Shown here in pieces: positions 7,556 through 26,053 of a stretch of DNA of 64,000 nucleotides (within the stretch, counting starts at the first letter, position 1; each line of letters opens with the position of its first letter). Both the position numbers and the translations under genes were made by a program. Location: assembly GCF_003026395.1 (NCBI RefSeq), contig NZ_PYOO01000004.1:62001-126000 (forward strand), written 5' to 3'. Origin of the DNA: Photobacterium iliopiscarium. GTDB lineage: Bacteria > Pseudomonadota > Gammaproteobacteria > Enterobacterales > Vibrionaceae. The notes beneath the pieces were generated by a model. It did not search any database. It was not told the origin of the DNA and was given only the letters and a program-made list of their open reading frames with translations.

Positions 7556-8443
7556 TTAATAAGCAACATACATTAGTTGTATATCCGGATTAAGTGCATC
7601 TAACAATGCTTGTGTACGCGCTAATTGACTAATTTTACTTTCAGCACTTTCTACCAGTGCTGCTTCTGCAATCTCAGACAATGAATAGTTAGACATATTC
7701 ATATTAATTAATGCCACTTGCAGAGGCGGTAAGCTTGGGTTGAATGCTGCATTTTCTGCATACATGCCTTCAAAAATACGGCCATCATGTGCTTTTAATG
7801 CCACACCACTGAAATTCTTTGAGTAAGGTGCATGTGAACGGTTGGCTGCATTACACGCGCTAATCGCAAGTTCTGAACCTTCTTCAATGCAAATGCCATT
7901 ATTCAAATCGCTCAATAGACCATCCTTCACCCCTAAATCTAGCGGGCCAAAAGAATCAGGTAGGTATTGTTGCAGCGTCATTGGTTCGCGTTGTGGCAGT
8001 TGGATGATCATATCGTTAGCTGATGTTAATTCATTCATAAACTGACGGCAGTGACCACAAGGGCTGTAGTTAATAGTGACATCTTTAATACCCACTTCAC
8101 CCTTGATCCATGCATGGCTAATGGCAGATTGCTCAGCATGAATAGTACAAGCCATACTTGCGTTTTCAAATTCCATGTTAGCACCAAAATATAAGCGGCC
8201 AGATGTGCCACGAACAATTGCACCAACATAGAAATTAGAAATAGGGACTACAGCATAGGAAGCAGCAAGAGGAAGGAGGGCCAAGCGAAGTTCAGTATCA
8301 GTCATGTGCGTGGTTGATAATAAACATTCAAATTGCTCAGGACTGATAGTCGAATCGAAATCTGAAGCTTCAATAATAGGCTTTAAAGCTGACGCCAATT
8401 CAGCAGGTAATAAGCTTAATGCTTTTATAACACGTGCGTACAT
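7556..8443 (-). CDS. cdd: Cytidine deaminase
   Basis: Cdd deaminates cytidine and deoxycytidine to uridine forms for pyrimidine salvage. The 295-residue length shows it is the large, two-domain dimeric type. The zinc site is intact: His102 and Glu104 in CTIHAEQSAI, Cys129 and Cys132 in YSPCGHC, at the same residue numbers as in E. coli Cdd. The second, catalytically degenerate domain follows. A CRP-type palindrome lies about 60 bases upstream, in line with the CRP/CytR control known for cdd in enterobacteria. Confidence 0.96.
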   Translation of the reverse strand: MYARVIKALSLLPAELASALKPIIEASDFDSTISPEQFECLLSTTHMTDTELRLALLPLAASYAVVPISNFYVGAIVRGTSGRLYFGANMEFENASMACTIHAEQSAISHAWIKGEVGIKDVTINYSPCGHCRQFMNELTSANDMIIQLPQREPMTLQQYLPDSFGPLDLGVKDGLLSDLNNGICIEEGSELAISACNAANRSHAPYSKNFSGVALKAHDGRIFEGMYAENAAFNPSLPPLQVALINMNMSNYSLSEIAEAALVESAESKISQLARTQALLDALNPDIQLMYVAY

Positions 8444-8503
8444 TGGGTGTTACTCCTTCATTGTTTATGGCAAAACATTCTATGTGAATCACAACGAGTT
8501 AGA

Positions 8504-8519
8504 AGTGATCTTGATCACA
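8504..8519 (-). promoter_or_regulatory. Candidate CRP site upstream of cdd
   Basis: AGTGA-TCTTGA-TCACA, a near-perfect CRP palindrome (one base off TGTGA-N6-TCACA), 61-76 bases before the cdd start. The inner bases GTGATCTTGATCAC are symmetric. CytR half-sites were not convincingly seen. Confidence 0.65.
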
Positions 8520-8658
8520 CTGTTTGTTTTGCCATTACACCTATTACATTACTGAGAGTGGCGTCACACTTGTTTCTGTAACAAAGAATATAATATTTCA
8601 ATGACTTAGCAAAAATTAACCGTTTTGGTTGTTTTATGCGCAACTATTGAATTGCTTA

Positions 8659-10494: not shown

Positions 10495-11916
10495 TTACAT
10501 TAACTTATTAATATAGTCATATAACGACTTCATGATCTTCATTTTGTTTTCATCGGATTGGCAATCGAGTGCAGCTGCTTCAAAGTTCTCCATGTACTTA
10601 GTCATGTTCTGTTCAAAGAAATCTTGGCAATGATGCTTCCAACGCTGCTGTTCTTGATAGGTGAGTGTTAATGGGTAATTTCGTGCACGATAGCGGAACA
10701 ACAGCGGTTTAATACGCTCATCTTCAACATTGATTTCCAATGTAGCCAGCGAATCAACCTCAGTTTCACGAATAATATCCATCGTAGAACGATCAGCGGT
10801 TGAGAAGAAACCATCGTAAAGCATGGTATCAACGTTATCACTATTGGCGTATTCACGTTTAACACTGAACATTTCCAGCAATTTAGCCCGTATTTCAGGG
10901 TGCTGCTTTAATAACGCTAAATGTTTAAGGCATAACTCACGATCAATTCCCAATCGCGCCGCATCTTCTGCTTTTAAGGTTTTGGCAGGGGCAAGAACAG
11001 GACACTTGTTTAAATGCACTTCTTTAATCGGGACGGGTAACTCATCAGGACCAAGATCGATACGCTTAGTGTATAAACGCTCACGCAGTTGATCAGCATC
11101 AAGTTCAATTAATGGGGTCGGATCTTGGGCTAGGTTAACGCAGATCACCGCATTTTTGTTATCAGGATGCCACGCCATCGGTACGATCCAACTGGTATTG
11201 CCACATTCAGTGCCAAACATACCCGATACATGCACAATAGGGGTGAGATCAACAATATCAATCAGATCTTGTAATTTACGCTTATGACGCAACTCAAACA
11301 GGTAATCAAACAGCTTAGGTTGGTTGTGCTTTAAAATCTTCGCCAGTTCAATCGTGGCGTACACATCAGCCATAGCATCATGGGCATTCGCGTGTTCAAT
11401 GCCATTGGCGATAGAGAGCTTCTCAAGCTTAAAGCTCGGACGACCTTCATCATCTGTTGGCCAGTTAATGCCATCAGGACGCAATGCATAACAAGTACGC
11501 ATGATATCGAGTAAATCCCAACGAGAGTTACCGTTTTGCCACGCCCAGCCATAAGGATCATAAAAGTTACGGTATAACGTATAACGGGTCACTTCATCAT
11601 CAAAGCGCACATTGTTATAACCAATGACACAGGTATTTGGCTTTGATAGCTCAGCATGAATTTGCGCAATAAACTCAGGCTCTGATAAACCTTTCTCCAT
11701 TGCTTCTTGTGGCGTGATCCCCGTAATCAAACATGCTTCAGGTGACGGTAAGTAATCGGCTGGTGGCTTACAATAGATCACCAAAGGCTCACCGATGATG
11801 TTCATCTCCATATCGGTACGCACCCCTGCAAATTGGCAAGGGCGATCATTCGCTGGACTGGCACCAAAGGTTTCGTAATCAATCCAGTATAAGCTTGGTT
11901 CGTTGGTTTTTTTCAT
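10495..11916 (-). CDS. sbcB: Exodeoxyribonuclease I
   Basis: ExoI digests single-stranded DNA 3' to 5' and acts in mismatch repair and recombination. The 473-residue protein starts with the DEDDh exonuclease domain (Asp13 and Glu15 in YWIDYETFG; CVIGYNNVRFDDEVTRY; HDAMADVYATI with the catalytic His and Asp) and continues with the SH3-like and helical C-terminal domains of the ExoI family. Length matches E. coli SbcB. It is the last clearly core gene before the accessory island begins. Confidence 0.96.
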   Translation of the reverse strand: MKKTNEPSLYWIDYETFGASPANDRPCQFAGVRTDMEMNIIGEPLVIYCKPPADYLPSPEACLITGITPQEAMEKGLSEPEFIAQIHAELSKPNTCVIGYNNVRFDDEVTRYTLYRNFYDPYGWAWQNGNSRWDLLDIMRTCYALRPDGINWPTDDEGRPSFKLEKLSIANGIEHANAHDAMADVYATIELAKILKHNQPKLFDYLFELRHKRKLQDLIDIVDLTPIVHVSGMFGTECGNTSWIVPMAWHPDNKNAVICVNLAQDPTPLIELDADQLRERLYTKRIDLGPDELPVPIKEVHLNKCPVLAPAKTLKAEDAARLGIDRELCLKHLALLKQHPEIRAKLLEMFSVKREYANSDNVDTMLYDGFFSTADRSTMDIIRETEVDSLATLEINVEDERIKPLLFRYRARNYPLTLTYQEQQRWKHHCQDFFEQNMTKYMENFEAAALDCQSDENKMKIMKSLYDYINKLM

Positions 11917-12314
11917 AGTTTTCCCAAAAGCCGTTGGCTCAATATCAAGTTACTGCAATCCATGACACGCTGCATATCAACTTAATATTTTCTTAAAGCA
12001 ATACGTTATAAAGCTAAGTATCCCGTAACTGACCTAATAGAGGCAAGTTTTTAGGGAAAATAAAGCGTCCCCCTCGTCATTCCCTACAGTGAATGCCCGC
12101 GAGGGCGATAGGGAATCTACTATTCGCGTGTTGTAGGGGTTATTAGTAGTGGTATCGTTATTGCTGTAAAGAGTAAGTTCATTATTGAAAAAACCGACTT
12201 CGACCGTATTAAAAGACAACACGTAGGTAAAGCACCTGTAGTCGGTACTCGTGTACCAACGCCCCAATAAGACGACCAATTCCAATTGAAGCGCGTGCGA
12301 TACTCGAAAGGGTA
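11917..12314. other. Non-coding junction between sbcB and the island
   Basis: About 400 bases with no credible gene. A minus-strand frame here is low-complexity and includes a GC-rich hairpin (listed separately). This is probably the left junction of the accessory region, because the integrase fragment that follows has no 5' half. Confidence 0.45.
12079..12116. repeat. Nested hairpin element with GNRA-type loop
   Basis: Outer arms ATTCCCTA/TAGGGAAT (12079-12086 with 12109-12116) enclose an inner hairpin GCCC-GCGA-GGGC (12095-12106). The element is much GC-richer than its surroundings. It has no T tract, so it is not a standard terminator; it resembles dispersed intergenic palindromic repeats. 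Confidence 0.5.
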
Positions 12315-12623
12315 ATGGCAACTTATGATGATGTGTTGTTCCCTGATGGTGATCTTGATAGGCCGATAACTATTTCAGCGGCTAACCGTTATATCCGCCG
12401 TATCAGAGATAGTTTACCTATTGAAGATTGGCGTACTCATGATTTTAGACGTTCGCTATCCACCGGCGCATCAGAATTAGGTGTAATGCCACATGTGGTT
12501 GAGAAGATGCTAGGTCATGAGCTAGGTGGGGTATTAGCTGTTTATAACAAACATGATTGGCTGAAAGACCAGCTAGAAGGGTATGAGTTATATGCGGAGA
12601 AGCTGGATAGTTATTTGAGGTAG
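12315..12623 (+). pseudogene. Tyrosine recombinase (integrase), C-terminal fragment A
   Basis: The 102-residue frame is only the catalytic C-terminal end of a phage-type integrase. The HxxR box is present in WRTHDFRRSLSTGASELG, followed by VEKMLGHELGGVLAVYNKHDW with the His and Tyr nucleophile region. The N-terminal SAM-like domain and first catalytic Arg are absent and no upstream frame restores them, so it is a remnant. The last 83 bases recur in degraded form at 15178-15253. Confidence 0.85.
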
Positions 12624-13104: not shown

Positions 13105-13120
13105 AACAAATGAGGTAAGT

Positions 13121-14152
13121 ATGATTTCAAGAGGAAAATACATCGGTGAGATTATCGATTCTATATCGCAGTTACAGAATTCGGTCAGGCTTCGCTCCAA
13201 ATTGGGATTCTATGACATTAATAAATATTGTGAAGATTTTGCCTGTGATTTATTGAATATTGTTTTTGGGTTCAACCTTGTAAACTTAAACGCAGACCGA
13301 GTTAACGAGCCTGGGCTAGATATTGGTGACAAAAAAAGAAGGGTTGCATATCAAGTCACATCGGATAAAAAGCTATCAAAAGTTTCGAAAACAATAGATA
13401 ACATTACTGCTCAACAGAAGTCGGACTACGATGAACTCTGTATTTTAGTATTAGGTGACAAACAAGGCTCATATACCCTGACAGACGCTAAGTACTGTGC
13501 ATTAAATTTCTCAGAAAGTAATATTATTGATCTTAACGATATTGCATCCCAAATTGTATATCTCGATATCCAAAAAGTAGAGCAAGTGCTTAAGCTGTTT
13601 AGTAACAGCATGGTTAATCTTCTTTCAGAGTTTGAATTACCGGATGAGGATGGAAATTATGATACTTCTTATTATAACAATGTAGAAGAAGTAGCTACTG
13701 TTACTTTGAATGACATTAATTCATTTGAGTCATACGCTGAAGCCGAATGTGGAGAATTAGATGAAGGAAAAAGGTTACGCAACGTTAAAAATTTAGCTAA
13801 TGAGTTGGTGGCGTTGCCAAGACTTTCTCGTGAGGTGTTAGCAATTCTACTTGAGCGTAAAGATGATATTCCTTGTGATTACGAATCAGCAGGTTTAGAG
13901 GTTACTGCATTTCAGAAAATCCTAAATGTTTCAGATGCTAACTACCAGAATGAATTATCTTATCTTGAAAGCAAGAATATGGTAGCAAGGAGTGAAGGTG
14001 ATACTGGTGACTTTGGCCAAGTACATTATGTTGTCTTATCTGGAGCATTTATCGTTGATTTGTTATGCCAAGAGCTATTTTATTATGCCAAATCAAAATC
14101 ATTTTCAATCCGAAAAATGATAGTAAATTTAGACTTTAGTGATTTAAGTTAA
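13121..14152 (+). CDS. SMEK-domain protein, cassette-borne (defence-like)
   Basis: A 343-residue soluble protein. The N-terminal half resembles the SMEK domain: SKLGFYDINKYCEDFACDLLNIVFG, then LDIGD and VAYQVTSDKK (Asp67/Asp70, Gln78, Thr80-Ser81). That Asp then Q-x-T/S order looks like a restriction-endonuclease fold with a changed D-ExK site; this is inference. The C-terminal third (from about residue 225) has helical, winged-helix-like character ending in IRKMIVNLDF. GAGGTAAGT precedes ATG 13121. The gene fills a cassette between two attC-like sites. Likely an anti-phage or nuclease-type function, unproven. Confidence 0.75.
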   Translation: MISRGKYIGEIIDSISQLQNSVRLRSKLGFYDINKYCEDFACDLLNIVFGFNLVNLNADRVNEPGLDIGDKKRRVAYQVTSDKKLSKVSKTIDNITAQQKSDYDELCILVLGDKQGSYTLTDAKYCALNFSESNIIDLNDIASQIVYLDIQKVEQVLKLFSNSMVNLLSEFELPDEDGNYDTSYYNNVEEVATVTLNDINSFESYAEAECGELDEGKRLRNVKNLANELVALPRLSREVLAILLERKDDIPCDYESAGLEVTAFQKILNVSDANYQNELSYLESKNMVARSEGDTGDFGQVHYVVLSGAFIVDLLCQELFYYAKSKSFSIRKMIVNLDFSDLS

Positions 14153-14206
14153 ACTAACAGATAAGGATATGTGTCGCACAGCCGACACCTATCCGAAGTG
14201 TTGGAC
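14153..14206 (+). repeat. Short attC-like site (59-base-element type) ending the cassette
   Basis: Directly after the stop codon: AACTAAC, spacer, GGATAtGTGTCG, six-base loop, CGACACcTATCC, spacer, GTTGGAC (14200-14206). The last seven bases fit GTTRRRY exactly; the left AACTAAC is an imperfect inverse core. The two L-type arms pair with one mismatched base each side, and the spacers between core and arm do not pair (AGATAA against GAAGT), as in true attC sites. Confidence 0.55.
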
Positions 14207-14240
14207 AAGCCAAGGCTACCTACCAAATCAACAAACTTCT

Positions 14241-14267
14241 AACGGATAATATTCAGTATTATCCGTT
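14241..14267. repeat. Perfect 11-base palindrome
   Basis: AACGGATAATA, loop TTCAG, TATTATCCGTT. No T tract follows, so a standard terminator is unlikely. It repeats the GGATA word of the attC-like site just upstream. Role unknown. Confidence 0.5.
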
Positions 14268-14360
14268 GACTTAGTAAGTCCCTGTGTGTTATATATTAAA
14301 AATAACCAGCAAAATCTGGTATCGGGATTAGTACCCCGCACGAACTACAGGCGTAATAAC

Positions 14361-14381
14361 GCCAGCTTATGCTGGTTTTTT
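14361..14381 (+). terminator. Small intrinsic terminator in the Rha leader
   Basis: CCAGC-TTAT-GCTGG followed by a run of six T. It would stop transcripts entering from the SMEK cassette, or act as an attenuator ahead of the Rha remnant. Confidence 0.7.
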
Positions 14382-14386
14382 ATTGC

Positions 14387-14538
14387 GGCGAACTCACACA
14401 CCTGAATTATGGTGGGCTGAGTGAGGCTACCTTAGGGTAGGCCGTTTCCTGTAGGCGGTAGTACTAACCTTACTCAGTTCGCCACCCAGCGATTAGTACC
14501 TCTGAGTGGTGATCAAATCATTACTACAGGAGGTTATC
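14387..14538 (+). promoter_or_regulatory. Structured leader upstream of the Rha remnant
   Basis: GGCGAACT (14387-14394) and AGTTCGCC (14476-14483) are complementary and enclose an inner hairpin around GGCTACC/GGTAGGCC. A further hairpin CCACcCAG/CTGaGTGG spans about 14482-14512. A good ribosome site AGGAGG lies just before ATG 14539. Similar folded leaders occur upstream of phage ash/Icd-like and Rha genes in P4-type elements (from memory); whether this one acts as RNA is unknown. Confidence 0.45.
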
Positions 14539-15143
14539 ATGCCTACCCAATCTGCTTTGCCTATCGCGCAATTCAGTCCCTCAGATCTTATTTTCATCTC
14601 TGATACTAATGAACTTGTCACTGATTCATTAACGGTATCGAAGCACTTCAGTAAACAACACAAAGACGTTTTAAAAAGATTGAATCTCTTGATTGTTCAG
14701 ATGTTTTTACGTCAGCGAACTTTTGCGCCCACGCGAAAAAAATCACAGCAGGCGTTGTTGTTAGGGACTCTAAAGTTTACCAAATGACGAAAGATGGCTT
14801 CATGTTCCTCGTAATGGGATTTACGGGAAAACGTGCAGCGGCAGTTAAATAAGCTTATATCAATGCCTTTAATCAAATGGCTGAACAACTCACAAAGAAA
14901 CCAGCAGCAGAACCATTGAGCTATAGAATTATGACCGTTATTGAAAATGGTCAAGCTATAGAGTCAAAGATGATCCCTAATGATGCGTTCATAATTAGTA
15001 AATCACATCTTGCCCAATTGTTTAACGATCTAAACTTATTCAGTGTGGACGAGTTACTGGCGATATCGAGTAGTGTGAACAAAAGTATTGCAGAGATAGC
15101 AAAGCTGCAAGATGCGCGGTTTAAGCAGATGAAGAAGCAGTGA
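14539..15143 (+). pseudogene. Rha-family phage regulatory protein, frameshifted and stopped
   Basis: The start MPTQSALPIAQF and the region TDSLTVSKHFSKQHKDVLKR match the Rha family. Near 14690 the frame shifts; the continuation reads DCSDVFTSANF and then MTKDGFMFLVMGFTGKRAA, the family signature. At about 14850 a TAA interrupts VK-stop-AYINAFNQMAEQL where relatives have Glu (GAA to TAA would do it). The remaining C-terminal part runs to 15143. Two independent lesions show it is dead. Rha blocks phage growth in IHF-deficient hosts and is common on lambdoid and P4-like elements. Confidence 0.85.
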
Positions 15144-15152
15144 TAGTAGAAG

Positions 15153-15175
15153 AGGCCCTATATGGGCCTTTTTTG
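15153..15175 (+). terminator. Terminator after the Rha remnant
   Basis: AGGCCC-TATAT-GGGCCT followed by TTTTTT. A perfect small terminator, retained although the gene is broken. Confidence 0.88.
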
Positions 15176-15177
15176 TT

Positions 15178-15253
15178 TGTTTATAGCAAATATGATTGGT
15201 TGAAAGGTCAGCTAGAAGGATATGCGGAGAAGCTGGATAGTTATTTGAGGTAG
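15178..15253 (+). pseudogene. Integrase C-terminal fragment B
   Basis: About 75 bases read VYSKYDWLKGQLEGYAEKLDSYLR-stop, a second copy of the extreme 3' end of integrase fragment A (12541-12623), with several substitutions and a 9-base deletion that removes three codons (ELY). Only the tail survives. The pair of tails brackets the SMEK cassette and the Rha remnant, which suggests either two related elements integrated side by side or recombination between them. Confidence 0.8.
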
Positions 15254-15454
15254 ATTGTTTGGTTATTTTTTTAATTGAAGCTGTTTGGGGTTGTGGTAAT
15301 GAATTTGGAAATCAGTACGTATGCAGGAAAACTAGATATATAAAGTTATTCTATATATTATGAGTTGCTTATCCTTATTTAATGTTAGCCATTGATTTAC
15401 AAGGTATGCATCAAGGTGCTAAGGTGTTCTTTTATTCTGATTTTTAGGTATAGC

Positions 15455-16975
15455 ATGCTATTTGATACAAATCTTACGGGAAAAACTCTAGATCCAATTC
15501 ACGGTATAATTCGTCTGACAGAATTAGAATTAGATTTTATTGATCATCCATTATTTCAACGATTAAGGAATATCAAGCAAAATACATTTCTTTACAAAGT
15601 TTTTCCTTCTGCAATGCATAGTCGTTTCGAACATTCTCTAGGTGTGATGCATTTAGCTTATGAGATTTTAGATAATATGGAGATAAATGCTCATCGTTAT
15701 AAAAGAAAGTATGGCGATGATGTTATTTTTACGAAGCTTTCTAATTTACCTATATCTAATATACAAGAGCTTCGATTGGCAGCTTTAATGCATGATATCG
15801 GTCATGGACCTATGTCTCATCAATTCGACTCTTTTATGTGTAATAAAGCGGAATTCCAAAGTTACTTTGGTGATAACTATCCTCAAATTGTTGATTTAAT
15901 TGCTGATGGTGGTCATGTAGAACATGAACATATGTCTCTTCTTTTTGCTAAAATTATTTATGAGAGTTTACCTGAAAAAAAGCGTTGTAAAATAAATATT
16001 GATAATGTTCTTTCTATCATAGAAAAGGATTATCAGAAGGAAATTTCTGTAGAATTAAATGGTTGTATGGTAGATGTTTTACCATTGTTTACGTCAATAA
16101 TATCTTCCTGTCCTATTGATGCAGATCGAATGGATTATCTTTTAAGGGATAGTTATTTTTCTGGAGTTAAGTGTGGTATTTACGACCATAATAGACTGTT
16201 TATGTCTATGGTTCCTGTTGTTGCTGAAAATAAAGTCTTTTTAGCTTACAAAGAAAGCGGATTAGATTCGATAGTTGAATTTATTAATGCACGGGCAAAT
16301 TTGTTTGGGCAAGTTTATTATCATAAAACAAATCGCTCTTTTTCGTCTATGTTGAGTAAAGTTTGCGAGCTTTCAAAAAAACATAATTCAGATGTGGCAT
16401 TGTTTGATTTTACATTACCCACTGATGCTGAACAGGGCTCCTATATTGAACAAATCCAAAAGTTTTATCTTGATAATTCAGATGATTATTTCTTGAATGA
16501 ACAGTTAGAGTTGTTGATTGGTAATATTAAATCAGCTGTCACTATTAATAATGATATTATTTCTAGAAAGCCGTGGCGTAAAGTCTATGAATCAAAAATA
16601 TATCCTTCAAAATTATGTATTATAGATGTAATTGACAATAATAAAGTAAATTTATTGAAGTCAATAATAAACAAATTAATAGCAGATCAAGATATTGATG
16701 ACTCAATGTTTACTATTGATGTTATGACTGATAACGCATTTAAAGATATAGCAAAGACAGAGATAAAACTCCTTGAAAAACAGCTTGATGGAAAATATGC
16801 TATTACAAAATTTAAGGATGCTAATGATAAATTATATCGATATCAATCAATTAAGTGTTTTATAAGAATATTCGCTCATAAATCAGTGTCTGAGCGATTT
16901 AGTATTAAATTGATTCAGTTAATAGATAAAGTTAAAGATGAGTTTATAAAAGAACATTCTTTAGTGAAAAGATAA
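15455..16975 (+). CDS. SAMHD1-like HD phosphohydrolase
   Basis: A 506-residue HD-superfamily protein. The N-terminus has the SAMHD1/YwfO pattern: DPIHGIIRLTELELDFID, FQRLRNIKQ, VFPSAMHSRFEHSLGV (His60), then LMHDIGHGPMSHQFD (His113-Asp114) and CPIDADRMDYLLRDSYFSG completing the metal site. Relatives hydrolyse dNTPs; some limit phages by draining nucleotides. The C-terminal 200 residues are helical and lack a recognised domain. ATG 15455 follows AGGTAT; the frame extends upstream to 15392 without family character. Strongly AT-rich compared with core genes, and located among mobile remnants, so it is probably acquired cargo. Confidence 0.82.
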   Translation: MLFDTNLTGKTLDPIHGIIRLTELELDFIDHPLFQRLRNIKQNTFLYKVFPSAMHSRFEHSLGVMHLAYEILDNMEINAHRYKRKYGDDVIFTKLSNLPISNIQELRLAALMHDIGHGPMSHQFDSFMCNKAEFQSYFGDNYPQIVDLIADGGHVEHEHMSLLFAKIIYESLPEKKRCKINIDNVLSIIEKDYQKEISVELNGCMVDVLPLFTSIISSCPIDADRMDYLLRDSYFSGVKCGIYDHNRLFMSMVPVVAENKVFLAYKESGLDSIVEFINARANLFGQVYYHKTNRSFSSMLSKVCELSKKHNSDVALFDFTLPTDAEQGSYIEQIQKFYLDNSDDYFLNEQLELLIGNIKSAVTINNDIISRKPWRKVYESKIYPSKLCIIDVIDNNKVNLLKSIINKLIADQDIDDSMFTIDVMTDNAFKDIAKTEIKLLEKQLDGKYAITKFKDANDKLYRYQSIKCFIRIFAHKSVSERFSIKLIQLIDKVKDEFIKEHSLVKR

Positions 16976-17010
16976 ACTTTTGATTACTTTTCAAAATTAT
17001 AAGTCAAAAA

Positions 17011-17042
17011 AATAAAGCGATCGCCAAGATCGCTTTATTTTT
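17011..17042. terminator. Bidirectional terminator after the HD gene
   Basis: AATAAAGCGATC-GCCAA-GATCGCTTTATT with further T; twelve-base perfect stem. It serves the HD gene on the plus strand, but a related hairpin also follows alpA at 18048-18071, so it came with the alpA 3' end. Confidence 0.85.
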
Positions 17043-17111
17043 AAAACTGCTTTCCAAATCGACTTGTATTATTTTTCCATTCTTCAACAGCAGAACGTAA
17101 CTAGCGTAAGA
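17043..17111 (-). pseudogene. alpA 3' end, broken copy
   Basis: On the minus strand the bases encode LR-stop-LRSAVEEWKNNTSRFGKQF-stop, clearly the last 20 or so residues of the intact AlpA at 18080-18421, where the sequence reads LRWLRSAVEEWKDNTSRFGKRF. The Trp codon has become TAG. The copy includes the downstream hairpin, as in the intact gene. It marks another duplicated element end inside the island. Confidence 0.82.
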
Positions 17112-17189
17112 GTCGAAATACAATATTCAAGTTGTGGAGTATAGTGGTATAATTAAAATTTACTATTATAAACAATTCGTTATGGTTGG

Positions 17190-17963
17190 GTGATTTCATT
17201 GAGCATCAAAGAAAAGCTTAAGTTTCTAAAAGTGAATGAGCATAATATCTATGTGATTCATTATTCGTGTGAAAATTTAAATGACAACAATGAAAATATT
17301 TCACCTCGTGTAACCTCTATCGCGGCACTACATCTTCAAAGTCATACAATGCATAGCTTTTCAATTCACCTTGTTGCCGAGAAGCTGCATATAGGCCGAG
17401 ATAAGATTGCTGAGAACTACAATGAATTAGAAAAACAGATGCTAACTGATTTTTATTCTTTTGTTCGTGATAATAATGGTGCATTGTGGCTGCATTGGAA
17501 TATGTCTAATATCAACTACGGCTTTGAAGCCTTATCTCATCGATATGAAGTACTTTCCGGTGAGAGAGGTGTAAGAATCCAAGACACGAGTAAACATAAT
17601 TTATCTAGCTTAATTATAGAAAAATATGGTAAAGATAGTATTGCTCACCCAAGAATGAAAACTCTGCAAAATTTAAATGATGGTAATCATCGTGATAATC
17701 TTAGTGGTGAAGAAGAAGTTAAAGCTTTCCAAGATAAAGAGTTTGTTAGACTTCATAAGTCTACAATGTCTAAGGTTTACTGGTTCCAATCAATGTATTT
17801 TTTGCTGCAAAAAAAAGGTGTAAAAGTATCTAACTATAACTGGTCTCAGAAGTTAAATAACCTAATGGAAAAATCGTGGGTAAAATTGTTGGGATTTATA
17901 GCTGTCATTTTGACTTTAGCACAAGCGGCTCAGATTGCATACGCTCAATTGCTCGTCCCGTAA
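17190..17963 (+). CDS. Unknown protein with C-terminal membrane helix
   Basis: A 257-residue protein. The first 210 residues are soluble, with a beta-rich start (NIYVIHYSCENLNDN; VTSIAALHLQSHTMHSFSIH) and ALWLHWNMSNINYGFEALSHRY. The layout slightly recalls DEDD-type nucleases, but a full acidic set was not found, so this is only a hint. Residues about 232-252 (VKLLGFIAVILTLAQAAQIA) form one membrane helix near the C-terminus. Start GTG 17190, or TTG 17199 which has better spacing to GGGTG. AT-rich; sits between the two alpA ends. A membrane-tethered effector of a defence gene is possible but unproven. Confidence 0.7.
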   Translation: MISLSIKEKLKFLKVNEHNIYVIHYSCENLNDNNENISPRVTSIAALHLQSHTMHSFSIHLVAEKLHIGRDKIAENYNELEKQMLTDFYSFVRDNNGALWLHWNMSNINYGFEALSHRYEVLSGERGVRIQDTSKHNLSSLIIEKYGKDSIAHPRMKTLQNLNDGNHRDNLSGEEEVKAFQDKEFVRLHKSTMSKVYWFQSMYFLLQKKGVKVSNYNWSQKLNNLMEKSWVKLLGFIAVILTLAQAAQIAYAQLLVP

Positions 17964-19314: not shown

Positions 19315-20559
19315 TTATAAATACTGCGTTAAAGTCTTTAAAAAAGAGATAGAATAAGTGATGAACTGTGGGTTCATTTTAAGCCAGACAAAAAGTATAG
19401 AAAATAGCCAAATAGACCAGATTATTTTTTTAATAAAAGACATGCTAGATTGAGCTTTATCAACCATTTTTGATAAGTCTTTTTCTGTTTTTTCTGCTTC
19501 TTCTCTTATCTCAGATTTTTGGTTTAAAACTTGATACCGAGAAAATACATTTGTTATTTGTTTTCTTATATGTTTGAACGAGCAATTATATATATTCAGC
19601 GATGAGTGTATTACTATACAAGTAGCTAAAAGTGCAACTACAACACCAATTGCATTAATTAAATTGTCGACTCTCATTACAGCACTAATAGCAATCATGG
19701 CACCAGGAATAGCTAAAGCTTTAGTTTGAGCTGAAGAGGTAATATCATTTATTTTACCCGTGTATTCTAAATCTTTAGAGTTTATCTCTTGAATTACTTT
19801 ATTTATTTTAAAATCACTTATGAATATATTATGGTGTTCATTATATATTTTATGTAATTTAACAAGATTACTCATACAATATGTGAAAATATTATTGCTA
19901 TCACTAAGTGTTTGTATTAAAGAATCAAAAGCAGAGCGCATACAGTTTTTACGCTCTTTGTCTTGTTGATCGTCTAGTTCAATACATTGTTTTAATTTGG
20001 ATAATGAGTCTAAACTATTATCCAAATTAATCTTAATGAATAAATTATTAAAATCCTCATAATCTATTGTTGTTTGAACTGAATGTTTAGCTCCTCCATC
20101 ATCATTATTAACAAGTAATACTACTTTCTGAGACCCTTTTATCTTTCCAGATTCAGGGATAGAGTGATCAGATAATTCTGCAAGTAGAGAACGAAACCCT
20201 AAAAATAATGTTATTTTTTTATGTATTTCTAACTCTTCAGAATAGACGAATAATTTGTTGTTAGTTGGATTGAAATACATACAATTTAATGGGTGCTCCC
20301 CATGAGTATCGGCGTATTCAAATATTTGCTCTTCACCAATATAGAAGACTTGTACTTTCCAGGCTGTTTTCCCGATCTTAAAGCGTAATTTGTTATCTCT
20401 AATAGGTCTACTAGGTGAAGTGTAGCCCAACTCTTTAAATTCATTTAAAATTGATGGTTGGTCACAATCTTCAGTTAATTCAAACGTAAGGGCGCTAGTA
20501 TCTTCGTTAGATATAATAAGATTTTCAAGTCGACAATGTAATTTGTGAAGAGTTGTCAT
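19315..20559 (-). CDS. Membrane protein, second gene of candidate two-gene system
   Basis: A 414-residue protein. Residues 1-270 are soluble, mixed alpha/beta then helical. Residues about 281-319 hold two hydrophobic helices (ALAIPGAMIAISAV and NAIGVVVALLATCIVIHSSL), residues 330-375 are a charged coiled-coil-like linker, and residues about 379-413 give one or two more helices (IIWSIWLFSILFVWL and a weaker last one). No family recognised. It starts one base after the stop of the NA37 gene, so the two are coupled. A soluble sensing part joined to membrane helices fits an effector that damages or depolarises the membrane; this is inference. Confidence 0.75.
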   Translation of the reverse strand: MTTLHKLHCRLENLIISNEDTSALTFELTEDCDQPSILNEFKELGYTSPSRPIRDNKLRFKIGKTAWKVQVFYIGEEQIFEYADTHGEHPLNCMYFNPTNNKLFVYSEELEIHKKITLFLGFRSLLAELSDHSIPESGKIKGSQKVVLLVNNDDGGAKHSVQTTIDYEDFNNLFIKINLDNSLDSLSKLKQCIELDDQQDKERKNCMRSAFDSLIQTLSDSNNIFTYCMSNLVKLHKIYNEHHNIFISDFKINKVIQEINSKDLEYTGKINDITSSAQTKALAIPGAMIAISAVMRVDNLINAIGVVVALLATCIVIHSSLNIYNCSFKHIRKQITNVFSRYQVLNQKSEIREEAEKTEKDLSKMVDKAQSSMSFIKKIIWSIWLFSILFVWLKMNPQFITYSISFLKTLTQYL

Positions 20560-20560
20560 A

Positions 20561-21757
20561 TCAACTACCTGATTTTTCTATCATTCTTAGTATTTTTTCG
20601 CGAAGTTTAGAGTTGTTTATTCGAATTTCTAAACGTTTAGTTTGTTTATTATATTCGACATCCTTACCATCGCCTGAATTACCTATTTCATTGTTACAAT
20701 GAAGTTTTGCTATAAGCCCATGATCTTCATCAGATAAATCAATCCAATGTTGGTCTTCAATTTGTTTTCGAGTTGGTTCAATATAATAATTAATTAATAG
20801 TTCATTTTCGTTAACAAACGTAATAAAAGTATCTTTTAGGTGCTCATATTCTTTAGGCAGTTCTGACTCGATAACGGTAGCAGCTTCTGATAATGAGAAA
20901 GAAGTTGTCTCTGATTTTTTTGTTTTTGCTAACAAGCCTGTTAGTTTGCTAGTGGCATTTTCTTCAAAATCAGAAGATAATCCGTTAATAACGCTAAATT
21001 GAGATATTGCTTCATACAGATTTTGTAAAGACTGCCCATTGTCTGATTTTTCTTTGCAGCCGAAAGCTGTTCTGAAATATTCAGCTGATGATGAACCTCT
21101 AATAAATTTTAAATATGCTTCTGACTCTAGAGTATTAGGATAACATTGACTAAATAAATCAATATTAATTGATACTGCTTGCTTTAATGCTTCTAGATTA
21201 ATATGTGCTGCTGATTTTGGTAACAATAAACTATCAGTTGTAAAATCAAAACCTAATTTTGTATCAACCATAACAGCTAAAAATTTGCCAAAGTCATCAT
21301 TTTTTGTATTACGATAATGCATGAAGACTATTTTACAACTACTAACTTTATGGACTCCTGTCTCAAAAATTTTTGCAGTTAATTCAGAAGTCATACTTTT
21401 AACTAAAAGCTTGAAATCTTCTTGAGATGCTGATGATTGAATATATTTATGAATATGAGATGGAATCTTATTGTCTGTGTTTTTTTCATAATAGCTATGG
21501 AACTTATTTTTACGTTTAAATTTAAGTTCAACTTGTTTAATGAAATTATATGAAACGTCTTCTTTTTGTAATGGCCATAACATACCTAATTTTGGAACAA
21601 TCGTTTGTTTTTTCTTATCAATATCTAATTCTAAAGTGACAGCATGAACGGCAACTAGTTCGTTTAGTGATGGATCAATTAATGGTATGGCGATCGCATC
21701 GCAACTTGGGCACTCTGATTGAGAAAAACTGGTATCACAATTATGGCAAGTGTACAT
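20561..21757 (-). CDS. Zinc-ribbon nucleoid-associated (NA37) protein, first gene of the pair
   Basis: A 398-residue protein. It opens with a zinc ribbon (Cys4, Cys7, Cys16, Cys19: CHNC, then CPSC). Then follows a domain resembling the 37-kDa nucleoid-associated family (PF04245, YejK/NdpA): VAVHAVTLELDID, GKFLAVMVDTKLGFDF, AYLKFIRGSSSAEYFRTAFGC and LQNLYEAISQF. Core YejK proteins lack the zinc ribbon and are about 335 residues. The family binds nucleoid DNA, so this protein could sense nucleic acid for its membrane partner. AGG precedes ATG 21757 by eight bases. Assignment by pattern recall; moderate certainty. Confidence 0.72.
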   Translation of the reverse strand: MYTCHNCDTSFSQSECPSCDAIAIPLIDPSLNELVAVHAVTLELDIDKKKQTIVPKLGMLWPLQKEDVSYNFIKQVELKFKRKNKFHSYYEKNTDNKIPSHIHKYIQSSASQEDFKLLVKSMTSELTAKIFETGVHKVSSCKIVFMHYRNTKNDDFGKFLAVMVDTKLGFDFTTDSLLLPKSAAHINLEALKQAVSINIDLFSQCYPNTLESEAYLKFIRGSSSAEYFRTAFGCKEKSDNGQSLQNLYEAISQFSVINGLSSDFEENATSKLTGLLAKTKKSETTSFSLSEAATVIESELPKEYEHLKDTFITFVNENELLINYYIEPTRKQIEDQHWIDLSDEDHGLIAKLHCNNEIGNSGDGKDVEYNKQTKRLEIRINNSKLREKILRMIEKSGS

Positions 21758-22624
21758 AGATAAAACCTAGAAGTATTTTTTTGACATTATATGCATGTAG
21801 ATTGTTATGTATAGTGTTTTGAACTATTAGTGATAACTATGTTGATTTTATAGATTATGATTGTTTTTTTTGATACTAATTTGACTGATGAGAGTGATAT
21901 TTAAGCTGTCATGATTAGTTTAGGATATGCTAGATTGATATAATAATTAGCTAATTTTGTCCCTGAAATGTCCTCAGTAATAAATAAAGTCGTTTAGCTA
22001 TTCTATATTAGATAGTTATAAGTAACGTATTAGAGTCAATCCCGTATAATTTTAGCTCATTGGTCTTTTTCATTATTATCCCAAAGCTGCGGAGTTAATG
22101 AAACGGCTAGCTATTTGCTAATATAAAGGTGGCATCCATACCATTCTCACTTGAGCTAATTAGATTTAAAGGCTTTTAATCTGAAAATTAGCCATCTCAA
22201 GTTTAGTGAAATACGATGTAAACTCGCTGAATAAACCAAAATGAAACCATAATTCCTATGATATATAACGGTATTTGTTGAAAGATAAGCTGTTCGATTT
22301 CTACGCCAATATTAAAAAATATGCCAGTGTTAGAGGAATGCGGGTTTGTTGCCGTCCAGTCGCTTTTTAGTGCACTTGCAAAACTTAAATTGCCAAAAAG
22401 TTCAAATAAAAACGAGATTAGCCACGGTAAGCGTCGGCTTAATATCTCTTGGTAAGAGATAGAATACCGTTGTTTTTATACATTAAATATTGAAATGTAA
22501 ATTCTTACTTATAGCGTGTAAAAGCGATAGTTGTTTGTTTTTTTTGTGATATATATGTAATAGAAAGATAAAGTTCAGTTATGAATTCCAATAAAAATAT
22601 TATCAAAATAATAAAGGAAGTGTC
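21758..22624. other. Long non-coding stretch upstream of the two-gene pair and lldD
   Basis: About 870 AT-rich bases with no credible ORF. The left part must hold the promoter of the NA37 pair. The middle (about 22050-22450) has a higher GC than its flanks and coding-like phrases broken by stops, perhaps a decayed gene or insertion sequence. TATCTCTT-GGT-AAGAGATA at 22443-22461 is a perfect palindrome. The right end carries the ribosome site of lldD. This is the likely right junction of the island. Confidence 0.4.
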
Positions 22625-23788
22625 ATGAAAGACTATTTTAATACTGCATATCCATCCATCGATCATCTAAGAAAAAAAGCCAAATCACGGTTACCGAAGT
22701 TTGCGTTTGAATACGTAGATGGCGGTTGTAACAATGAAATTGGTTTAAGACGAAACACAGATGATATTCGTAAGCTTGAACTTATTCCTTATTATTTAAG
22801 AGATTATAAGGATGTATCTTTAAAAACTACATTGTTTGGTGAAACTTACGATGCGCCATTTGGTGTAAGCCCCGTTGGACTTCAAGGCTTAATTTGGCCG
22901 CAAGCACCTGAGATTTTAGCGAAAGCGGCTTTTGATCATAATGTACCGTTTGTATTGAGTACGGTTTCTACTGCGTCGATTGAAACTATTGCTGAAATTA
23001 CTGAGGGTAAAATGTGGTTTCAACTTTATCACCCTGTTGATGATGCTATTACAGATGATTTACTTGCTCGTTGTAAGGCGGCAGGGGTTAAAACCTTAGT
23101 CTTACTATCTGATGTTCCAACCTTTGCTTATCGTCCTAAAGAAATAAAAAATGGATTGGCGATGCCGCCAAAAATGACAGCAGAAAATATGCTGCAAATT
23201 ATGCTTTCTCCTGAATGGGCATTGGAGACATTAATTAAAGGCAAGCCGGAATTTAAATCGTGAACCAAATATATGTCTGGTTCGATGAATATGCACCACT
23301 TAGCGTTATTTATGGATAAAACATTTAATGGACGTTTAAGTGAAGAGAAAGTACGTAAGTTACGTGATAAGTGGGACGGTAACTTAGTGCTAAAAGGGTT
23401 ATCGACTGTTGAAGATGCAAAAAAAGCGATTGAAATCGGTCTTGATGGGATCATCGTTTCAAACCACGGTGGACGTCAATTGGATGCGGGTCCATCAACC
23501 ATCAGTAAAGGCATTGAAATTCTTAATGCTTGTAAAGGCCAAACAACCATTATGATGGATAGTGGTATTAGAGAAGGTTCTGATGTTGCTTGTACGCTGG
23601 CGGCGGGCATGGACTTTACATTTATGGGCCGTAGTTTTATGTACAGTGTGGGTGCTCTTGGTCAAAATGGGGGTTATCACGCAATGAATATGTTGAAAAA
23701 ACAACTTCAACAAGTGATGGAGCAAGTGTGTTGTGAAAAACCACAAGATTTGCCAAATCATCTGGCTCAAATTAAAAATCTTTGGTAA
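22625..23788 (+). pseudogene. lldD: L-lactate dehydrogenase (FMN) with in-frame TGA
   Basis: LldD oxidises L-lactate to pyruvate at the inner membrane using FMN. The frame 22625-23788 reads as a full FMN-dependent alpha-hydroxy-acid dehydrogenase: FAFEYVDGGCNNE, PVGLQGLIWP, LSTVSTASIE, LVLLSDVPTF, then LVLKGLSTVEDA, IIVSNHGGRQLDAGPST with the active His, and GIREGSDV. One TGA at 23261-23263 (KS-stop-TKYMSG) interrupts it with no frame change; Leu TTA to TGA is one substitution. AAGGAAG precedes the start. Otherwise intact, so the lesion is recent, or a sequencing error, or read through. Confidence 0.85.
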
Positions 23789-24734: not shown

Positions 24735-25176
24735 TTAATTGCGTCCCGCCATCACGCCGCCATCGACGTCAAGCACCGTACCTGTGATCCATTTTGCTTT
24801 ATCTGATAATAAAAACTCAATCGCATCTGCAATATCGGTGGTTGAGCCGATGCGTCCAATAGGGTGAAAATCATTAAATCCTTGTAGAGCGGTTTCAATT
24901 TCATCTTCAGCAATGAATGACTTATAGATAGTTGACAGTACAACCGCAGGGGCGACAGCATTAGCACGAATATTGTAATCTGCTAATTCCATCGCTAAAT
25001 TGCGGGTGAACGCATGTAAGGCTGCTTTTTGCATTGAATAAGCCGATGATGGGGTTGCTTTAATTGCTTGATGTGCCCACATTGAACCAATATTTACGAT
25101 TGAACCACCACCATGTTGTTGCATGTTTTTTGCAACGGCTTGAGTAATGAAGAAAAATGCTTTGTTGATATCTAAT
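24735..25176 (-). pseudogene. Short-chain dehydrogenase, duplicated 3' fragment
   Basis: Identical to residues 111-256 of the full gene at 25283-26053. It lacks the whole N-terminal half with the NADP-binding glycine motif, so any product (for example from the internal Met that gives 129 residues) should be inactive although Ser, Tyr and Lys of the active site are present. Created by the 548-bp tandem duplication. Confidence 0.92.
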
Positions 25177-25724
25177 ATTTAGAATTAAAGATCACAATTT
25201 TTTCTACCTATGAGTAGAAAGGTAATGGCGACGTATTCATCGCCATTATTCAATAAAAAATGACTGTTATTGTTTCTGTGTATTAATTGCGTCCCGCCAT
25301 CACGCCGCCATCGACGTCAAGCACCGTACCTGTGATCCATTTTGCTTTATCTGATAATAAAAACTCAATCGCATCTGCAATATCGGTGGTTGAGCCGATG
25401 CGTCCAATAGGGTGAAAATCATTAAATCCTTGTAGAGCGGTTTCAATTTCATCTTCAGCAATGAATGACTTATAGATAGTTGACAGTACAACCGCAGGGG
25501 CGACAGCATTAGCACGAATATTGTAATCTGCTAATTCCATCGCTAAATTGCGGGTGAACGCATGTAAGGCTGCTTTTTGCATTGAATAAGCCGATGATGG
25601 GGTTGCTTTAATTGCTTGATGTGCCCACATTGAACCAATATTTACGATTGAACCACCACCATGTTGTTGCATGTTTTTTGCAACGGCTTGAGTAATGAAG
25701 AAAAATGCTTTGTTGATATCTAAT
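25177..25724. repeat. 548-bp perfect tandem duplication, right copy
   Basis: Right-hand copy of the 24629-25176 segment; the junction is direct. It covers the true 3' end of the dehydrogenase and its downstream region. Confidence 0.9.
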
Positions 25725-26053
25725 TGAAGATTGTAATCTTTTTCAGTATGTTCTAGAAAACTTACCGGTTTAAAAAAACCAGCAGCGTTAACTAGATAGC
25801 CAATATGGCGGTTTTCGTTTTCAAGTTGACCAATAAAAGTATTCACGTCTGCAGGGTTATATAAATCAACTTGTGCTGTTTCAACAATGCCGCCTGTACG
25901 TTGTTCTAAATCGGCTTTTGCAGTGGCTAGGTTTTCTGCATTGTGAGATAAAATCATAACAGGAATCCCTGCGGTTAATAAGCGTTCTGCGGTTGCTTTA
26001 CCCATACCTGATGAACCGCCAACGATGAGTGCAATTGATGATGTAGTAAACAT
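25283..26053 (-). CDS. Short-chain dehydrogenase/reductase
   Basis: A 256-residue classical SDR: cofactor motif GGSSGMG near residues 12-18, NAAG at 89-92, and active-site Ser141, Tyr156 and Lys160 (SAYSMQK). The basic residue pattern after the glycine motif does not settle NAD or NADP. The C-terminus [16 protein letters not shown] is typical. Two ACCTA-N8-TAGGT palindromes lie just upstream, matching the neighbouring TetR gene, so it is probably induced by that repressor's ligand. Substrate unknown. Confidence 0.92.

Follow-up and report, generated by a model that had tools for sequence, protein, structure and literature searches.

A zinc-ribbon NA37 protein and a membrane partner in a Photobacterium island at sbcB: a gene pair of the anti-phage system DS-1

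What do two tightly coupled genes, one encoding a zinc-ribbon protein and the other a membrane protein, do just inside the end of an integrative island? The question is raised by a 64,000-nucleotide stretch of the Photobacterium iliopiscarium genome (contig NZ_PYOO01000004.1, positions 62,001 to 126,000; hereafter, the window), in which an earlier note, made from the sequence, had seen two minus-strand genes one base apart and had read them as a candidate two-gene defence system. The arrangement is confirmed: both genes are intact and lie on the minus strand at 20561-21757 (DS1_1, the first in order of reading) and 19315-20559 (DS1_2), with a gap of a single base. Because both encoded proteins score above curated NCBIfam cut-offs, i.e., that of NF053868 'DS1_1_antiphage' for the first (383 bits against 330, E = 1.3e-114) and that of NF053869 'DS1_2_antiphage' for the second (356 bits against 315, E = 2e-106), the pair is, as judged from these profile scores, a member of the already named anti-phage system DS-1, and its kind is thus not new. 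PHROG 3767 and PHROG 5023 are also matched by the pair, and Pfam at E ≤ 1 gave zero matches for either of the two window proteins. A RefSeq record of E. coli (H29) annotates such a pair as a 'nucleoid-associated anti-phage protein' and an 'anti-phage protein', and the reading as a two-gene defence system is accordingly supported by the names that NCBIfam gives to both proteins and RefSeq to the pair.

From the shared name and domains, we infer that the 'DS1' of NCBIfam is the DS-1 of the DefensePredictor study (PMC13092281). As the text of that study has it, 42 of 94 cloned transcription units led to smaller plaques or to plating that was at least ten-fold lower in assays that challenged E. 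coli MG1655 with 24 phages; the YejK nucleoid-associated domain is named there among the newly validated defence domains in E. coli, and zinc finger and transmembrane are among the abbreviations in the legend of its Fig. 3, a list that serves the figure as a whole (PMC13092281). 'DS-1' is absent as a whole word from the main text of the study, in which no mechanism for DS-1 was seen (PMC13092281), and a literature search found no published mechanism for the system.

The first protein (398 residues) begins with two CxxC motifs, formed by Cys 4 and 7 and by Cys 16 and 19 (zinc ribbon, 21701-21748, minus strand), after which follows an NA37-type core, and both parts had been recognised in the earlier note. 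The cysteine quartet is kept in 14 of the 15 DS1_1 rows that were aligned, the exception being L044, and the cysteines are absent also from L006 and from all 12 divergent paired homologues in the alignment. A check of the fold, which the note had proposed, gave the YejK type: residues 32-398 of the predicted model share the fold of structure 9be2, at 14% identity in the structural alignment. At E ≤ 1, PF04245 (NA37) matches 13 of the 15 aligned rows (best E = 2.5e-26) and does not match the window protein. The note had named a match of the first protein to a housekeeping family as something that would undermine its reading, and the possibility that DS1_1 is simply the housekeeping YejK was rejected: the window protein reaches 37.2 bits with the YejK equivalog NF001557, whose cut-off is 341, and a separate YejK-like gene is present in the same genome. 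The two kinds of protein have the fold in common, but DS1_1 differs from YejK/NdpA (PF04245, 9be2) by its N-terminal zinc ribbon, by its linked membrane partner and by being mobile and not core. DNA binding by DS1_1 is assumed from its family, NA37 proteins being nucleoid-associated and altering topoisomerase activity, according to the source consulted (PMC10053502).

The second protein (414 residues) has a soluble part followed by membrane helices, again in line with the earlier reading: a Kyte-Doolittle scan gives about 280 soluble residues and then three hydrophobic segments, and an AlphaFold model (pLDDT 83.6) gives the soluble region an alpha/beta fold. The predicted hydrophobic hairpin spans residues 279-318 or thereabouts (19606-19725, minus strand; model helices 283-296 and 300-343), and the third predicted membrane segment lies at about residues 375-393 (19381-19437, minus strand; model helix 349-395). 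The most conserved part of DS1_2 is the juxtamembrane helix (residues 253-278; 19726-19803, minus strand) together with the first membrane segment: of the 32 columns that are invariant or nearly so in an alignment of 15 rows, 14 fall in residues 253-290. A fold search returned mainly generic helical bundles, the stalks of CorA/MRS2 among these. Matches to the PADLOC models '2TM effector' (window protein, E = 0.0085) and 'RTasSLATT' (one of 18 family members, E = 0.001) are weak hints toward a two-helix membrane effector and could be due to chance. Like the two-helix effectors of the SLATT and CBASS type, DS1_2 would have a hydrophobic hairpin and then a cytosolic helix, but it differs from these in its third membrane segment and in belonging to a two-gene unit without a cyclase, and the matches that connect them (E = 0.001-0.0085) come from single members only. 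That the protein might be a metabolic transporter, the other objection raised beforehand, finds little in the searches, since the window DS1_2 has no Pfam match and its relatives show weak single-member matches, of which the transporter-like ones are CopD (E = 0.0044) and Cation_efflux (E = 0.13), each in one of 18 relatives.

Recurrent pairing of the two genes in other genomes had been proposed as a check. Viral contigs found through DS1_2 carry a DS1_1 match directly upstream in 29 of 29 cases, and those found through DS1_1 contain DS1_2 in 34 of 35; combined, the pair is present in 35 of 36 distinct contigs, a set that is dominated by near-identical prophages of the E. coli type. The lone unpaired contig (L080) ends about 200 bases past DS1_1, and on another (L071) only the end of DS1_1 is present. 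Among genome loci with a DS1_2 match, 20 of 22 have an NA37-like gene upstream, and the two that do not (L115 and L182) are DS1_2 fragments. At L118 the NA37 gene is cut off by the contig end, at L103/L120 a stop inside the DS1_2 frame causes the gene to be read as two pieces, and in genome G374 a second, weak DS1_1 match is a paired, divergent copy. The distance between the two genes ranged from -17 to +5 bases across the 17 loci that were measured. Pairing in one gene order is thus shown to be near-obligate. A further match to the DS1_2 model (L021; E = 1.3e-4, 20 bits) is a 496-residue protein that we judged unrelated and placed outside the 22 genome loci; it is presumably a photolyase relative.

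Weak DS1_1 matches (L002, L008-L019 and L023-L040) have no DS1_2 match within roughly 1.5 kb on either side, and those that were read are mostly YejK-type NA37 genes, for which neither a zinc ribbon nor a membrane partner was seen in the cases examined. At L010, a YejK-like gene (35-1027) is followed two bases on by a gene (1030-1986) that we take to encode a metallophosphatase. Several copies of the pair have one open gene and one that is broken, shortened or split by an IS element (L051, L056, L067, L069, L071 and L072; H19 and H35 in E. coli).

Beyond the strong pairs lies a divergent set, which scores well below them with the DS1_1 and DS1_2 profiles built in this analysis (30-132 and 36-78 bits, respectively). 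In a tree that joins 28 paired with 14 solitary NA37 proteins, the labels paired and solitary require three changes against a mean of 12 after shuffling, and a single change sufficed in 0% of 200 bootstraps; the strongly supported branches by themselves force only one change, and three of the paired rows are long-branched. The paired proteins are spread over several lineages that surround and intersperse the solitary YejK-type ones, and several origins are suggested. On this topology, NA37 proteins with an immune role would have arisen repeatedly, or else the housekeeping protein would be nested among immune ones. We entertain, tentatively and at somewhat less than even confidence, a wider view: two-gene systems in which an NA37 protein serves as the sensor of a membrane effector would form a broad class of diverse sequence, found in several families of Pseudomonadota, and DS-1 would be the branch of this class that has the zinc ribbon.

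The pair is carried by mobile elements of more than one kind. Of 5426 complete genomes, 105 have an E. coli-type pair (identity of at least 99%), which sits at 105 chromosomal sites and one plasmid site, and an antiterminator Q gene is listed under the match in all 25 of the rows shown, out of 106. In two plasmid records, the pair is flanked by phage holin and antiterminator genes. On the viral contig L007 (IMGVR_UViG_2671180816_000002, 12 kb), the pair lies downstream of a secretin gene and is separated from it by a DUF2726 gene; the gene set of this contig (a replication protein with PF05840, a Zot-domain protein and the secretin) is of the filamentous-phage type. Relative to a DS-1 pair on an E. 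coli plasmid, the window pair has the same gene order and coupling, and both of its proteins exceed the curated cut-offs, but identity is only 29% for DS1_1 and 25% for DS1_2; and whereas the E. coli type resides in a lambdoid prophage, the window pair resides in a chromosomal integrative island.

The ends of this island are marked by the 5' end of sbcB. The sbcB 5' end and adjoining bases at 11870-11940 form a direct repeat with a degenerate copy at 22027-22097 (80% over 50 nt, E = 7e-7 in blastn, and supported by alignment), and the two are putative att copies. Because the sbcB 5' end recurs at 22027-22097, the DS-1 pair comes to lie inside the right end, by about 270 bases, of an island of about 10 kb. 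A C-terminal fragment of a tyrosine recombinase (12315-12623, plus strand; PF00589, E = 2.6e-9) is located at the left end. With the 5' part of sbcB and upstream bases as query, a second match was found in 6 of 52 genomes of the genus, five on the same contig at a distance of about 10-39 kb and one on another contig; the window genome itself gave one match only, since its degenerate right copy is too weak to be picked up by that search. Of the 30 sbcB loci read from the 52 genomes, 18 have an integrase-like match next to the gene. In P. malacitanum (L041), the same sbcB site, with a counterpart of the right end at 8382-8524, holds the same pair, 97.7% identical in its DNA sequence. Between the two species, dS is 0.008 and 0 for the two genes of the pair and 0.71 for sbcB, which indicates recent horizontal movement of the pair.

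The remaining cargo differs between the two sites. In the window, it includes a SMEK-domain protein (13121-14152; PADLOC Aga_REase class I, E = 8e-42), an HD-domain protein (15392-16975; PHROG 35128, E = 6e-180) and a protein with a C-terminal membrane segment (17190-17963; PHROG 8766), each of which is a possible defence gene. In P. malacitanum, the cargo comprises PD-T7-5 (E = 2.5e-74), an AriA-like ATPase (E = 2e-26) and a PDC-S31 protein; the stretch at 13118-17716 of that locus reads as PD-T7-5, an AriA/OLD-like ATPase and a DUF2971 protein. Several smaller features were also seen in and around the window island. The 3' end of the integrase fragment (12539-12623) is repeated 2.6 kb away at 15178-15253, with one block identical at 34 of 34 positions, as if two elements had integrated successively. 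Beside the island, at 22625-23788, two open reading frames in one frame are separated by an in-frame stop and look like a pseudogene, presumably of an FMN-type dehydrogenase; and the last 129 residues of a gene that we take to be of the short-chain-dehydrogenase type are duplicated just downstream (24735-25124 and 25283-26053).

A wider comparison of gene neighbourhoods, restricted to proteins of 200-1300 residues, set 12 loci of the DS-1 family against 12 control stretches from the same genomes, leaving aside the L132/L175 pair for its size, L118 and L123 for want of a matched control, and L041-L044. At E ≤ 1e-15, 105 PADLOC families were matched among 96 proteins neighbouring DS-1 and 45 among 124 control proteins. 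The 25 families listed of the 105 include SngA, SngB and SngC (Shango), the cyclase, 4TM effector and E1-E2 of CBASS, and GajA, and many of the 25 listed of the 45 are Dpd, Drm and Brx models. The control matches, too, include strong ones (E = 1.6e-296 for DpdF and 2.5e-105 for PsyrT), many of which we take to be generic helicases. When the neighbours of L041-L044 were scanned singly, 6 of 10 had a PADLOC match at E ≤ 1e-5. The comparison supports an association of DS-1 loci with defence genes, and it is a coarse one, in that one protein can match many models.

How, then, might the pair act? The reading that we prefer, and regard as an even call, is that the DS-1 pair is cargo of the integrative island at the sbcB 5' end, in which the NA37 protein senses the DNA of an infection and its membrane partner acts. 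The NA37 protein would bind DNA, or a DNA-bound complex, that arises during phage infection, candidates for the trigger being phage DNA that is incoming, replicating or altered in its topology. From there it would act through the cytosolic region and the long juxtamembrane helices of DS1_2, and a gated change at the inner membrane (e.g., a leak or depolarisation) would halt the infection. We favour such a gated change over a passive anchor because conservation in DS1_2 is highest in its juxtamembrane helix and first membrane segment, and this effector step leans on that conservation together with E-values that may reflect chance.

The main rival is a tether resembling Kiwa, in which DS1_2 would do no more than anchor its NA37 partner to the inner membrane; there, the NA37 protein would coat injected phage DNA and block its transcription or replication, and the cell would survive. 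The earlier note had drawn the comparison with KwaA and KwaB, and as a matter of layout it stands, both being two-gene systems of a membrane protein and a DNA-binding protein. KwaB is described in the review text as binding injecting DNA without cutting it (PMC12904381), and the nucleoid is what NA37 proteins bind, by the account consulted (PMC10053502). Homology, on the other hand, did not emerge: Pfam shows no KwaB (PF16162) match in DS1_1, and profile comparison by hhalign gave a probability of 0.2%, with just two KwaB sequences behind the profile. Moreover, DS1_2, at about 400 residues and with its large soluble part, is about twice the length of the presumed KwaA proteins (193 and 207 residues), and a simple anchor would not need conservation focused on the juxtamembrane helix and first membrane segment. 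We consider the tether unlikely, if worth keeping in view.

Rather improbable is control of DNA topology, whereby the NA37 protein, like YejK, would target gyrase or topoisomerase IV, an action that its membrane partner would confine to sites of infection, stalling phage replication. The activities exist in the family, in that inhibition of gyrase and topoisomerase IV is reported for E. coli YejK, and activation of topoisomerase I for StaR (text of PMC10053502), and the DS1_1 model has the YejK fold; but the 14% identity to YejK is low, and it is the solitary YejK-type genes examined that do without zinc ribbon and membrane partner. Last and very improbable, a role outside defence in mobile-element maintenance or lysogeny (e.g., superinfection exclusion against related phages, or an addiction pair), for which carriage in prophages, with genes for holin and antiterminator Q as neighbours, and on a filamentous-phage-type contig would speak, fits poorly with the anti-phage naming in NCBIfam and RefSeq and with the pair's presence also on chromosomal stretches with other defence genes, and a strict toxin-antitoxin pair fits poorly with the copies in which one gene is broken and the other open, unless some of these breaks are sequencing errors.

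According to the text of the DefensePredictor study, the YejK nucleoid-associated domain was without validation in defence before that work (PMC13092281). For dissecting what zinc ribbon, NA37 core and membrane segments each contribute, a ready set exists in the window pair, the nearly identical P. malacitanum copy and the divergent relatives. These also suggest that copies scoring below the present NCBIfam cut-offs go missed, and within Photobacterium the sbcB site is a place in which to seek more defence genes.
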